A stretch of DNA of 64,000 nt from NCBI RefSeq assembly GCF_019457475.1, contig NZ_CP080413.1, positions 3,038,001-3,102,000 of the forward strand. The letters are read 5' to 3'. The DNA is from Shewanella acanthi (lineage in GTDB: Bacteria; Pseudomonadota; Gammaproteobacteria; Enterobacterales; Shewanellaceae). The position numbers and the translations under genes are program-made. Of this stretch, positions 19,291 through 34,046 are shown in pieces (the first letter of the stretch is position 1; the number at the start of each line of letters is the position of its first letter). Under the pieces are notes generated by a model that saw nothing but the letters and a program-made list of their open reading frames with translations, did no database searches and had not been told where the DNA came from.

Positions 19291-19309
19291 AAAGACAACG
19301 CTGTCATTT
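19291..19309. promoter_or_regulatory. NagR operator upstream of nagP
   Basis: AAAGACAACGCTGTCATTT, core palindrome GACAACGCTGTC. On the minus strand TTGTCT-17 bp-TAACAT can be read as a promoter whose -35 overlaps the operator, consistent with repression by a LacI-type protein. Confidence 0.7.
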
Positions 19310-24063: not shown

Positions 24064-24081
24064 AATGACAGCGTTGTCATT
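24064..24081. promoter_or_regulatory. NagR operator upstream of nagKBA
   Basis: AATGACAGCGTTGTCATT, a near-perfect 18-bp palindrome identical on the minus strand to the consensus AATGACAACGCTGTCATT. It lies between the nagK start and the hex terminator. Confidence 0.8.
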
Positions 24082-24185: not shown

Positions 24186-26873
24186 TTACTTTTCAATAAA
24201 GAGGCTGCGGCCGCGGCGATTTCCATCTGCAGCAATAGCGCGAATGTCGAGCGGCGTTTTAACGGCAACACCCTCTTGATAGGTCTGCCAATCACCATTT
24301 TGCTCTCGATACTCAATCTTAAGGCCTGGGTAGGCAATATTGGCAAACAGCTTTCCATCCTTAATGCTTGCCCCCACCGTTGGCACTCGGTAATCGATAC
24401 CCGCCTTATCAAGCTTAATTAACTCCTTATGCCCTAAGGTATTGGCTAATCGCTGCCAATCTTCAGCCTGCCGCGCTCGCATTTCTGGAGTAAAAAAACC
24501 GCTGCTTTGATTGTAAACAGCGCCTTGATATTGATAGGGAACCTCCCACTCGGCCTGATGCCAAGCTCGCTCTGCAAGCATCAATAGCCTAGGGAAAATC
24601 ATATATTCGGCGGTATCATCGCTGCGAATCGTCTCACTCCAAAGCTGTCCTTGAATCCCTCGGAAGGCCTTACCTTGCTTCCTTGGACTCGCGGTAACGT
24701 TACCGTCAGCATCTTTTTTCACAGTATCATCCGCCTCAAAGGGCAGATTTTGTAAATCAGTCCACTGCTCGGCATTAGCCGCTAAGTTATCCGGCATGAA
24801 GCTAAACACTTTGTGACTATTGGTTGCCCTGCTTGCCCAGTAATAGCCATGCTCCTTTGGATCCGCTTCGTAGGGAAAATCGAAGTACAGCACTTCGGGA
24901 TTGGACAATACGACATCCCAGCCGTTGTTTAACTGCTTATGGGCCCGCTCATGCCCTTTGTAGGCAATCACATCCCAAATATTAGACTGCACTTTAGCGG
25001 GCATTTTTTCGGGGCGAACATGACCCATGCCATCGCTCCAACCTGCAGCCTCAATGCCTTTGCTCGCCAATTGATTGGAAATGCGTTCGATAAAATAGGC
25101 GCCCAGATCATCAATGGAAGCTACCCCCTTATCGTTATTAGCGATAAAAGCTAAACATTCAGGGGATTGTTTCCAGGCACCCGCGGTTTCATCGGCGCCA
25201 ATATGGTAACGAGAAAGCGGCACGCCTGCGGCTTGATGTAATTTGGCAATTTCATCAATCACTTTATCGACAAATTGATAGGTCGACTCCATGCACACAT
25301 TCAAAGTGTTATCGTCGTAATATTGCACTGAAGAATAGACAGTCTTGTCATTGGCATCGGACAGCAAGTAACGATTCGCCTCACCTTTTTCCCCCTGCGC
25401 CATCAGCTTACGGTAACGAGCCTCCATCGATTTGATTGCTGCGCGGCTATGCCCTGGCATATCCATAGATGGGATCACCTGAATTTGGCGAGCATCGGCA
25501 TACTGTAAAATGTCGATATAATCCTGCTTGCTGTAAAAGCCATTGACGCTAGTATCGGCAAAGGGGCCGCTGCCCAGTTGCGGCAATAAACACTTATCCT
25601 CATCTAAATCGTGACACCGTTTACTACCAATATCGGTAAGCTCCGGCAGATCAGCAATTTCTAAGCGCCAGCCCTCATCGTCGGCCATATGCAGATGTAA
25701 TTTGTTGAGCTTATAAGCCGCCATTTGATCGAGCAGCTTAAAGATCATTTCCTTCCCGTGGAAATTACGTGCCACATCGATGTGCATGCCCCTGAAGGGA
25801 TAACGGGGGCTGTCGGTAATCGTCATAGGATTTACACGCAGATCCTTCACATCGACTAGGCTAGCAAGGGTAGATAGGCCATAGGAAAATCCAGATGCGT
25901 CATTTGCGGCGATACGTATTTCAGTTGACGTAATATCAAGCAGATAACTGCCCTCAATACCTTCTCGCTTTTCAAGGTTAACCTTAAGCCCCTGCTCGCT
26001 TTGCATCACACCTAATCTTGCAAGGCGTGTTAGCGCTGCGGCGATTTGTTCAGGTTTTAGCAGTTCTTGAATAGCGCCCTGATAAACAATCTTTACCCCC
26101 TTACTGAGCAAGACTGATTTATCGTGAGCTTTAATATCAATATGTTGTGGCGTAGGAACAATACTATTGACGGCAAGCGCGGCATTATCACTTACGGCAG
26201 CATTGTTGATATATAACTGTGCTGCAGTGGCGGGAGGCAATTTATCGGCCTCGGTGCGGCGGTATTGCTTTACCATGTCATGGTAAGCCTCGACATAGGG
26301 TCTAAGCTCCAGCCCTGTCTCACTGTCTTTTTGAAGCACAGTGCTTGCAATCACCACAGGCGCTAAACCGGGAGACACTAAATAATAATTTGGCATGGCA
26401 TCGGTTTCAGAAAGCTGCCATAGCTCACCCCGAAACCGTAACGTCTTTTTAATGCCTTGCTGAAAACCCACAAATGCGGCCGTAGGCTCGATACGGTAGA
26501 GATCGCCCTTTACGTGGGTAAGTGTGAATTCATCACCTTCAACCGAATGCACTGGACGCATTTGGCTGAAATAAATAGCCCAATCTTTATGGTTAAAATC
26601 GATATTCGACTGAAGGTCGATTTCAGCAACAAAACAGCGCCCATCAGCCTGTGCTTTATCGCAATGTTCATCGGGGATATTAGTCACTACGCGATAGCGC
26701 ACCGCAAGATTATCACCAAATTGTTGTAGCTGAGTTTGGCGGTCAGTTGTTGGCACAGAGGATGTTGATGCCTCAAACAGGGTTGATGGCGTCACCTTTT
26801 CATTAACGGTGACTTCGGAGCAAGCACTTAATCCCAGTGTCAATAAAATCGATGTAGCGATTTGTTTTTTCAT
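24186..26873 (-). CDS. hex: Beta-N-acetylhexosaminidase (GH20) lipoprotein
   Basis: Chitobiase-type enzyme, 895 aa, releasing GlcNAc from chitin oligosaccharides in the periplasm or at the outer membrane. Lipobox LSAC (Cys at about 18) marks it as a lipoprotein. The order is an N-terminal carbohydrate-binding CHB_HEX domain (about 45-210), a GH20b domain (about 250-360, VPTPQHIDIKAHD), the catalytic barrel from about 365 (YPFRGMHIDVARNFHGKEM) with the catalytic pair in HIGADETAGAW (near 559-560), and a C-terminal Ig-like tail. Its start is 434 bp from a NagR operator, an unusually long leader. Confidence 0.9.
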   Translation of the reverse strand: MKKQIATSILLTLGLSACSEVTVNEKVTPSTLFEASTSSVPTTDRQTQLQQFGDNLAVRYRVVTNIPDEHCDKAQADGRCFVAEIDLQSNIDFNHKDWAIYFSQMRPVHSVEGDEFTLTHVKGDLYRIEPTAAFVGFQQGIKKTLRFRGELWQLSETDAMPNYYLVSPGLAPVVIASTVLQKDSETGLELRPYVEAYHDMVKQYRRTEADKLPPATAAQLYINNAAVSDNAALAVNSIVPTPQHIDIKAHDKSVLLSKGVKIVYQGAIQELLKPEQIAAALTRLARLGVMQSEQGLKVNLEKREGIEGSYLLDITSTEIRIAANDASGFSYGLSTLASLVDVKDLRVNPMTITDSPRYPFRGMHIDVARNFHGKEMIFKLLDQMAAYKLNKLHLHMADDEGWRLEIADLPELTDIGSKRCHDLDEDKCLLPQLGSGPFADTSVNGFYSKQDYIDILQYADARQIQVIPSMDMPGHSRAAIKSMEARYRKLMAQGEKGEANRYLLSDANDKTVYSSVQYYDDNTLNVCMESTYQFVDKVIDEIAKLHQAAGVPLSRYHIGADETAGAWKQSPECLAFIANNDKGVASIDDLGAYFIERISNQLASKGIEAAGWSDGMGHVRPEKMPAKVQSNIWDVIAYKGHERAHKQLNNGWDVVLSNPEVLYFDFPYEADPKEHGYYWASRATNSHKVFSFMPDNLAANAEQWTDLQNLPFEADDTVKKDADGNVTASPRKQGKAFRGIQGQLWSETIRSDDTAEYMIFPRLLMLAERAWHQAEWEVPYQYQGAVYNQSSGFFTPEMRARQAEDWQRLANTLGHKELIKLDKAGIDYRVPTVGASIKDGKLFANIAYPGLKIEYREQNGDWQTYQEGVAVKTPLDIRAIAADGNRRGRSLFIEK

Positions 26874-27109
26874 TCTTTTCCCTTCAATAACTGCAGGCTC
26901 TTAACGGCATTTGCGTCCGAGATGACAATGCTCGTACAGTTAAATACTTCTTCAATTCAGTGCGCTTTCTAGAATCTTTGAGCCTGTATCTAAAATCTAT
27001 ACATGGATTATTCGAACACTGAATCTTTAGTATTTCGATAAATCCTACCCGTAACATTCTCAAATTTCTTTAGGCTTCTACTCAGTGAAAATCCCCAAAT
27101 CATCCACTA

Positions 27110-27144
27110 AAAAAATGGCTGAGTACTGCAATCAGTACCCAGCC
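27110..27144 (-). terminator. Intrinsic terminator in the hex leader
   Basis: On the minus strand the stem GGCTG-G-GTACTG pairs with CAGTAC-T-CAGCC (one mismatch) around an ATTG loop and is followed by ATTTTTTTAG. The T-run of seven makes it a strong Rho-independent candidate. It ends no recognisable gene. Confidence 0.7.
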
Positions 27145-27301
27145 CACACCAGTTTCTGGGGAGAGAAAATCAAAGACAAGCGTATGACTACCCGACTAGC
27201 AATACCTTGCCAAACATGAGTAAGGAGACCTCATCCTTCCCATGCGGACCTTTCGACGAAGCGAAGCAATTGACTTACGAAGCCTTGATTAAGTGTTCCA
27301 A
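27145..27301 (-). ncRNA. Candidate NagR-controlled small RNA or leader RNA
   Basis: About 160 bp between a NagR operator and an intrinsic terminator, both oriented for leftward transcription. The longest ATG frame I found on that strand is 14 codons (ATG at the GCATGGGAAGG site), without conservation evidence. Internal complementarity (GCTTCG/CGAAAG, CCTTACTC/GAGG) is suggestive only. The transcript is hypothetical. Confidence 0.35.
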
Positions 27302-27329
27302 TAATCAATGACAACGCTGTCATTGATTA
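27302..27329. promoter_or_regulatory. NagR operator (hex / candidate RNA)
   Basis: The 18-bp core AATGACAACGCTGTCATT at 27307-27324 is extended on both sides into a 28-bp near-perfect palindrome (TAATC...GATTA), the longest of the four NagR sites here. Confidence 0.78.
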
Positions 27330-27540
27330 AGTTACACAAGTATCAACCTAATTTCTACATTTTTCTGACATTTAAAATAAGGAATTTGTTCTGTTATATC
27401 TTTTTTCATTTATTTCAGATTGTTATAGAGATTAGAGTCGCAATTCAATCTATCTATACAAGAAGGGAAGCGTGAACTGAGGGCGAATTCTGTTAATGGG
27501 TAAGATTAAAATCCCTAAAAGCGAACGTTGAGAGAGTTAA

Positions 27541-27577
27541 AAGCCAGAACAATAGGAAACTCCCCATGTTCTGGCTT
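27541..27577 (-). terminator. Terminator of the TonB receptor-halogenase-sapC unit
   Basis: 11-bp perfect arms AAGCCAGAACA/TGTTCTGGCTT with a 15-nt loop, 44 bp downstream of the sapC-like stop. T-run weak on the minus strand. Confidence 0.55.
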
Positions 27578-27620
27578 AGAGAACTAAATATGATATAGCA
27601 ATCGTATGCTGAACCACTTA

Positions 27621-28307
27621 TTAGTCGATAACAACATCCATCATACTTAGCGAGCAAAGATGTGCATAGATTGGGCCGTAGAATCCGCGTTTCGCGAAAT
27701 CCAGCATAGTTGCTTCATCGAGTTGAGCTAATTTCTGCTCATCAACAGTGTAAATACCGTCGATATTGGTCTTAGCACCATTAAGCGCAGTGACCGTTAG
27801 GGTGCGAGGTTGCAGTAATTCTTTCTCTACTAACGTTTTGATGAAAAAATGGCTCACATCACGGTATTTTGCCTGCGCGCTAGCAAGTTCTAAACGCTTG
27901 TTCAGGTAATCGGTTTTATCGCCATCTTCGTTGAATAAACGATTTGGACCATCCTCATTAACCGCTGCATTATTGATATCAATCCCAAGGATAATACGGT
28001 CTTCCGACACATTACTCATACCGAAAGGATAAAGCTGCACTTGCATCGGCAGATAACGAGACTGCCATTTTCCTTCTTTTAATAACTTATTAGTGTTCGG
28101 TTTTAAGGCGGTTAAGGCTACGGCAATAAACTCACCGGTTTGGGCATTTTTGGTAAAAATGATCGGAAAGCTGGTCGCGGCAGTGACAAATTCTTGCACG
28201 AATAAAGGCAACATGTGCACAGTTTCAAAGTAGCTATAATCAACCTTGTCATTGACCGTTAGGTTTTTATGCGCCGCATCATTCAACGGTACAAATTGTG
28301 TTTTCAT
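27621..28307 (-). CDS. SapC-like protein
   Basis: 228 aa soluble protein of the SapC family (named after Campylobacter S-layer locus genes). It starts MKTQFVPLNDAAHKNLTV and contains HMLPLFVQEFVTAATSFPIIF and YLPMQVQLYPFGMS, the usual family landmarks; no signal peptide. In Alteromonadales and Caulobacterales such genes recur next to TonB receptors and tryptophan-halogenase-like genes in sugar regulons. Function unknown. It lies 35 bp after the halogenase-like gene, probably in one operon. Confidence 0.72.
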   Translation of the reverse strand: MKTQFVPLNDAAHKNLTVNDKVDYSYFETVHMLPLFVQEFVTAATSFPIIFTKNAQTGEFIAVALTALKPNTNKLLKEGKWQSRYLPMQVQLYPFGMSNVSEDRIILGIDINNAAVNEDGPNRLFNEDGDKTDYLNKRLELASAQAKYRDVSHFFIKTLVEKELLQPRTLTVTALNGAKTNIDGIYTVDEQKLAQLDEATMLDFAKRGFYGPIYAHLCSLSMMDVVID

Positions 28308-33026: not shown

Positions 33027-34046
33027 ATGAAAGTCACTATCAACGACGTAGCTAAATATGCGGGCGTTTCGATAAAAACGGTATCCCGCGTTACCAATAA
33101 TGAACCCTCGGTGAAACAAGCCACTGTTGATAAAGTTAATGAAGCCATTAAAGCGTTAAATTATCAGCCTAACCTTGCCGCACGAAACCTTGCGGGCACA
33201 AAGTCCTATGCTATTGGTTTTATTTACGATAACCCCAATGCCTATTATATTATCGACATGCAAAACGGTATTCTTTCGGCCTGTAAAGATAAAGGTTATG
33301 AACTAGTAATTCATCCCTGCAATGCGAAATCGGAGAACATCTGTGATGAACTCTGTAACCTGGTTAAGCATTCCAGACTCGCGGGCTTAGTATTAACTCC
33401 ACCGCTCTCTGAAGATCCCAAGGTGCTCAAAGCGCTTAGCGAAATTGACGCTAACTATGTACGTATTATTGCCGGGGAAGAAACTAAAGTCGGTGATGGA
33501 CTCACTATTTTGGTCAATGACAAGTCTGGTGCAGTAGAAATTACCCAGCATCTGATTGATTTAGGCCATAAAGAGATTGGTTTTTTAAGTGGTGATTTAC
33601 ACCATGAATCCACCAAAGAGCGTTTACAAGGCTTTAAACATGCCTTAACAAAGAACAAGCTCAAGCTGAATAAAGATTACATAATTGAAGGAAAGTATTC
33701 TTTTGAATCAGGGGTGGCTGGTGCCAATCAATTGATCACACTTGAGAATCGCCCTACAGCTATTGTTGCTTGTAACGACGAAATTGCCGCTGGGGCATTA
33801 TTTGCGGCCAGACTAGCTGGATTGGATATTCCAAATGATCTTTCAATCGTCGGCTTCGAAGACAGTCCATTTTCGAGACAAACTTGGCCTAAACTCACTA
33901 CTGTCCATCAACCCAATACCGAAATAGCCAAGGTGGCGACAGAGTTGTTAATTGCCAATCGCCGTGAACAACATACGACCCTCTCAAAAACCTTTACGCC
34001 AGAACCGGTACTTCGCGACTCTTCTGCATCACCCCATAAGCAGTAA
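33027..34046 (+). CDS. nagR: LacI-family repressor NagR
   Basis: 339 aa LacI/GalR regulator. The N-terminal HTH (TINDVAKYAGVSIKTVSRVTN, residues 3-23) and hinge helix (YQPNLAARNLAGTKS, about 52-66) are complete. A periplasmic-binding-type sensor domain follows (YAIGFIYDNPNAYYIIDMQNG; DLSIVGFEDSPFSRQTWPKLT). A regulator of this type at this locus was proposed to control GlcNAc genes in Shewanella through an operator of the type seen four times here. The effector is unknown from sequence; GlcNAc or GlcN-6-P is the natural guess. Confidence 0.88.
   Translation: MKVTINDVAKYAGVSIKTVSRVTNNEPSVKQATVDKVNEAIKALNYQPNLAARNLAGTKSYAIGFIYDNPNAYYIIDMQNGILSACKDKGYELVIHPCNAKSENICDELCNLVKHSRLAGLVLTPPLSEDPKVLKALSEIDANYVRIIAGEETKVGDGLTILVNDKSGAVEITQHLIDLGHKEIGFLSGDLHHESTKERLQGFKHALTKNKLKLNKDYIIEGKYSFESGVAGANQLITLENRPTAIVACNDEIAAGALFAARLAGLDIPNDLSIVGFEDSPFSRQTWPKLTTVHQPNTEIAKVATELLIANRREQHTTLSKTFTPEPVLRDSSASPHKQ

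Follow-up and report, generated by a model that had tools for sequence, protein, structure and literature searches.

The intergenic stretch that separates a SapC-family gene (27621-28307) from hex (24186-26873), read on the minus strand of the window (i.e., the whole 64-kb stretch of Shewanella acanthi DNA that was analysed), is not a chance arrangement of signals: comparison of homologous sequences indicates that it encodes a structured RNA conserved across the genus, with a NagR operator at its predicted start and an intrinsic terminator at its end (Table 1). The reading that we place first, and to which we give about equal weight for and against, is that this is a small RNA, repressed by NagR and inducible by GlcNAc, and that read-through of its terminator lets the (mcp)-hex-nag operon use the same promoter.

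Table 1. Features of the locus, in the coordinates of the window
Feature	Position	Strand	Basis or remark
Predicted -35 element, TAGAAA	27352..27357	-	17 nt from the -10 element; 4/6 match to the sigma-70 consensus
Predicted -10 element, TAACTT	27329..27334	-	TAnnnT kept here or one base off, 76 loci
NagR operator, 28-bp palindrome	27302..27329	.	18-bp core at 27307-27324; overlaps the predicted transcription start
Structured RNA	27109..27322	-	Runs to the last T of the T-run; start predicted to within a few bases of 27322
Hairpin P1, conserved loop region GAUGAGGUCUCC (27224-27235)	27214..27245	-	Helices 1 and 2 covary; no less than 90% of cells pair
P3 region UUCUCUCCCCAGAAACUGG, near-invariant pyrimidine-rich loop	27149..27167	-	Invariant alignment columns
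Intrinsic terminator, 12-bp stem, A and seven T	27109..27144	-	Pattern scan; 9 of 11 modelled pairs with double changes
hex, beta-N-acetylhexosaminidase (GH20)	24186..26873	-	Pfam Glyco_hydro_20 and CHB_HEX; first downstream gene in the window genome
Separate NagR operator ahead of nagK	24064..24081	.	Exact core match; same place in nearly all loci
LacI-family regulator, presumed NagR	33027..34046	+	Pfam LacI and Peripla_BP; position in the nag cluster

The operator, which a preliminary description of this DNA had given as 28 bp long, is a near-perfect palindrome of that length (TAATCAATGACAACGCTGTCATTGATTA) and contains an exact (18/18) match to the core AATGACANCGNTGTCATT. The 28-bp extension is peculiar to the window genome, the genus-wide operator being the 18-bp core. 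Sites with up to three mismatches to the core number four in the 64 kb (0.31 expected). With the intact core at the promoter, and an operator abutting the RNA in 76 of 77 loci (in the exception, L125, it lies 228 bp upstream), the RNA probably falls within the NagR regulon. The predicted promoter is conserved across loci in the form TAGA(A/T)A, 17 nt, TAnnnT: TAGAAA or TAGATA stands as the -35 element at the same position in 44 of 76 loci, and most of the remainder are offset by one. A generic promoter scan missed this -35 element, which matches the sigma-70 consensus at only four of six positions.

The place of the LacI-family gene in the nag cluster fits the description of NagR (PMC3223726). 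In S. oneidensis, NagR binds the region upstream of mcpNag, and GlcNAc releases it from nagK operator DNA (PMC3223726). The published Shewanella NagR regulon (mcpNag-hex, nagK, nagP, ompNag and cbp) includes the same site, assigned to mcpNag-hex, but makes no mention of an RNA or a terminator between the operator and the genes (PMC3223726). At the RNA promoter the operator overlaps the predicted transcription start; the nagK and nagP operators are placed further upstream, close to the -35 element. Both the nagK operator and a left-hand one (19291-19308), in homologous loci as well as in the window, lie near a predicted -35 element with a conserved TGTAACAT or TTTTAACAT downstream.

A second NagR-like operator was seen upstream in 33 loci (L061-L136), mostly 143-156 bp from that of the RNA and sometimes 317-336 bp from it. 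We considered a looping partner about 150 bp upstream and rejected it, the neighbouring gene being divergent in 32 of the 33 (by eye, a TSUP-like membrane protein, or SapC). The second operator more likely belongs to this divergent neighbour, which suggests that these genes, too, are NagR-controlled. Just past the SapC gene in the window, an inverted repeat found by eye (GCCAGAACA...TGTTCTGGC, then TTTT; 27538-27578, minus strand) would insulate the RNA promoter from the upstream unit.

Searched as DNA, positions 27100-27420 were matched in 29 of 36 Shewanella genomes (the window's own included) and in none of 24 from other genera. The matches formed two blocks, one covering the promoter and operator, the other the 3' part of the interval. 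When oriented on the operator, the loci share the layout CTTGTGTAnnTT / operator / UGCUUGUGUGAC ... GUAAGGUCUGCAUG ... AGGA(A/U)GAGGUCUCCU ... CAUG, followed by a variable hairpin, UAGUCUCUCCCCAGAAACUAG and the terminator. A covariance model (R1; 178 positions and 27 pairs, built from the 21 sequences of alignment A1) found exactly one copy in 97 of 129 Shewanella genomes, i.e., about three quarters (E 3e-32 to 9e-5), and among 394 genomes sampled from the order all 23 matches were in Shewanella. A pattern scan of named records gave 46 of 47 matches in Shewanella, and for the sole exception, a Nitrospirae MAG, the covariance model gave no match. The match in the window (27109-27268, 122 bits, E 9e-22) is to a divergent member of the family, which is extended by about 38 nt on its 5' side and has an operator at -56 rather than -18 and a P3 region that has lost its closing stem.

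Among 74 distinct sequences of an alignment (A2), fitted to the model so that its covariation counts lean towards structure, 93.4% of cells pair and 165 show two-sided changes (50 in shuffles), the controls with slid partners being far lower (at most 49); 15 pairs carry double changes. The covariation is carried by P1 and the terminator, P3 being almost invariant. The loops GAGGUCU and CUCUCCCCAGA are near-invariant. The P1 loop, the U-rich linker, the tail and part of the P3 loop all have a high mean unpaired probability. The preliminary description had proposed either a NagR-controlled small RNA or an antitermination leader, and had staked this in part on conservation of the interval. That conservation proved strong, and the conserved structure, the fixed operator and the covarying terminator all support the proposal.

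The motif AGGUCU occurs twice in the homologues of this alignment, once as 5' AAGGUCUGC and once in the P1 loop as GAGGUCUCC, and P3 has a similar sequence, AGUCUCUC. Because it is self-complementary when G-U pairs are allowed, a loop-loop contact or a dimer is conceivable.

The terminator stem on the minus strand, GGCTGGGTACTG-ATTG-CAGTACTCAGCC (27144-27117), is followed by A and seven T, to 27109. It had been described as a 12-bp stem with one mismatch and seven T; the stem and the T-run stand, but the mismatch is a G-U pair, and all 12 positions pair in the RNA. The hex start codon lies 236 bp beyond the T-run, in agreement with the 235 bp given earlier. A terminator-like pattern is by itself not rare (one found in the region, 0.8 expected), so the case rests on conservation: this terminator is above chance because it is conserved with compensatory changes in 77 loci. 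Of the 77 RNA copies, 66 have a T-run of at least seven, a length reached by 6 of 127 intergenic terminators elsewhere in these loci (Fisher p 2e-34, uncorrected for relatedness). At least seven T is a described property of the terminators of Hfq-binding small RNAs (PMC5558911). As in that class, the Shewanella RNA combines a conserved predicted promoter of its own with a terminator of at least seven T. Long T-runs occur in attenuators too.

In all 77 loci the RNA lies on the same strand as, directly upstream of and at the head of an operon with the order (285-360 aa protein)(MCP)hex-nagK-nagB-nagA-nagX, members of which are missing in some species. The neighbours on the other side vary (tryptophan halogenase, SapC in either direction, a divergent membrane protein, a TonB receptor). 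Control of hex had been suggested; the operator and the RNA do head the unit, but this is the whole (mcp)-hex-nag unit and not hex alone. The protein of 285-360 aa encoded after the RNA and before the MCP gene (L079:3248-4141 and 26 homologues, cluster c9) looks secreted, has no Pfam match, and may be the binding partner of the chemoreceptor.

The spacer from the terminator to the first gene is 24-56 nt in five genomes and less than 100 nt in 16 of 75; because start codons were those of the longest frame, the real lengths can exceed these by some tens of bases. The spacers hold about as many promoter-like sites as chance would give (26 observed, 23.8 expected) and, besides that of nagK in L120, no NagR operator. 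Because the spacers are short and there is no conserved promoter past the terminator, mcp/hex transcripts probably pass the terminator, the operon being read through it. In S. oneidensis, deletion of nagR raises mcpNag 16-fold (PMC3223726), and a hexB-gfp fusion rises 6-12-fold without nagR (PMC5424254), so that read-through would need to be appreciable in this species.

The position at the operon head and the short spacers with promoter-like sites only at chance also favour a conditional attenuator, i.e., a leader acting in cis, in which a ligand or an RNA-binding or antitermination factor on the conserved loops decides passage into mcp/hex. This chief alternative is possible, although on balance we doubt it. 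The pattern of loss bears on it too, because strict synteny and loss of the RNA together with the operon fit a cis role equally well, and so weigh against a small RNA. The RNA is almost always absent where the operon is absent: of 25 genomes of the genus without it, 22 have no hex and 20 no nagA. The three RNA-less genomes with a hex match are G071 (a fragment only), G113 and G001. In G113 (L188), which of the genomes without the RNA has the hex most similar in sequence (76% identity), hex comes straight after a TonB receptor gene, and the operator, the RNA and the terminator are all gone; that hex runs without the RNA there speaks against the attenuator. In G001 the operator and a perfect 12-bp terminator are kept and the body is barely recognisable (E 0.008). 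The terminator likewise outlasts the body in the degenerate copies L124 and L125, which favours the attenuator over the small RNA. So does L120, the sole genome that lost hex: there nagK follows the RNA, and the P3 loop is damaged.

On the other side, no stacked covarying pairs were found between the terminator arms and upstream columns, the best complement falling at scattered positions. A terminator-type riboswitch or attenuator with competing helices was thus rejected for want of a conserved antiterminator, the arms varying among clades while the loops stay fixed. No antiterminator protein was recognised by Pfam among the neighbouring proteins scanned. An attenuator working through a leader peptide was also rejected: 15 further codons separate the ATG in the interval from a stop, and among 75 loci there is no conserved short frame, frame and length varying (1 to 97 codons). 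This bears out the earlier statement that the interval has no sizeable frame. A genus-specific class of antitermination RNA, whose loops would bind an amino-sugar ligand or a protein with no competing helix, as a second layer of control atop NagR, strikes us as unlikely.

A small RNA with read-through fits the data better than a classical attenuator does, because the T-run is long, the loops are fixed while the arms vary, neither an antiterminator nor a leader peptide was found, and sgrS-setA provides a precedent. Weighing against a small RNA is that no conserved trans target was found. The 14 nt complementary to the P3 loop gave no shared site in start regions; the matches with one mismatch that were inspected were to the RNA itself or otherwise inside or beside unrelated coding genes. 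Pairing with the start regions of hex, nagK, nagB, nagA, nagX, mcp and neighbouring genes gave mean z values of -0.6 to 0.3, with a single tonB value (z 1.3) as the outlier. A CsrA site was considered and rejected, the sole conserved GGA sitting in the P1 stem.

From this arrangement we infer how the small RNA might work. It would be about 170-235 nt long, with a promoter common to it and the (mcp)-hex-nag operon, and NagR would sit on the predicted transcription start. When GlcNAc removes NagR, polymerase would make the RNA and in most cases end there, at the conserved terminator, while a minority of polymerases would read on into mcp/hex. The small RNA so released would carry a long U tail of a kind that suits Hfq, which it would be expected to bind. 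It would most likely act in trans via its exposed, near-invariant loops GAGGUCU and CUCUCCCCAGA, the latter of which could cover Shine-Dalgarno sequences; trans targets would be complementary to GAGGUCU or CUCUCCCC.

A combined reading, in which an attenuator yields a terminated product that works as a small RNA as well, would draw on the same observations as the two single readings, and no measurement separates it from them; it requires two functions where one would explain the data, and we consider it rather improbable. Very improbable, finally, is a constant brake, i.e., a leaky terminator of fixed strength, preceded by a non-regulatory body, that reduces the output of mcp/hex in relation to nagK: nagK does have its own NagR operator in nearly every locus, G001 has kept operator and terminator with a nearly unrecognisable body, and hex in G113 has neither operator, RNA nor terminator, but the near-invariant exposed loops, and the covariation in most species of helices other than the terminator, require that the body be under selection.

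A close likeness to the proposed small RNA is SgrS of Escherichia coli, which is also of about 200 nt, has its own sugar-regulated promoter and a long T-run terminator, and lies directly upstream of a sugar gene, setA, which is transcribed via read-through of the sgrS terminator (PMC4509938). It differs in that SgrS is controlled by the activator SgrR rather than a LacI-type repressor, and in that the Shewanella RNA encodes no conserved peptide; homology to SgrS, in sequence and structure, was rejected, there being no Rfam match. Terminator-type riboswitches and attenuators resemble it in having a conserved folded leader and then an intrinsic terminator ahead of a metabolic operon, but here there is no detectable competing antiterminator helix and no match to a known family. 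The staphylococcal RNAs RsaE and RsaI are C-rich, anti-Shine-Dalgarno small RNAs of Gram-positive bacteria. They share with the Shewanella RNA an exposed, conserved UCUCCCC-like loop and, as predicted for the latter, control by sugar, but belong to another phylum and are not homologous.

Rfam 15 gave no match at the gathering score in the window or in 20 homologous loci, and only sub-threshold chance matches at relaxed E-values. Literature on Shewanella small RNAs with NagR or GlcNAc, and on SO3510/mcpNag, yielded regulon papers with no RNA mentioned. The locus is not among the 16 cis candidates in the available part of a computational survey of small RNAs in S. piezotolerans WP3 (PMC5471319). 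The earlier statement that no RNA is described here thus agrees with our searches, and by novelty we mean that a description was not found, rather than that the RNA is proven new.

The use of GlcNAc and chitin is a central pathway in Shewanella, and S. oneidensis MR-1 gains growth on glucose by mutations causing loss of NagR (PMC5424254). If NagR-induced cells make the RNA too, nagR phenotypes may be partly post-transcriptional.
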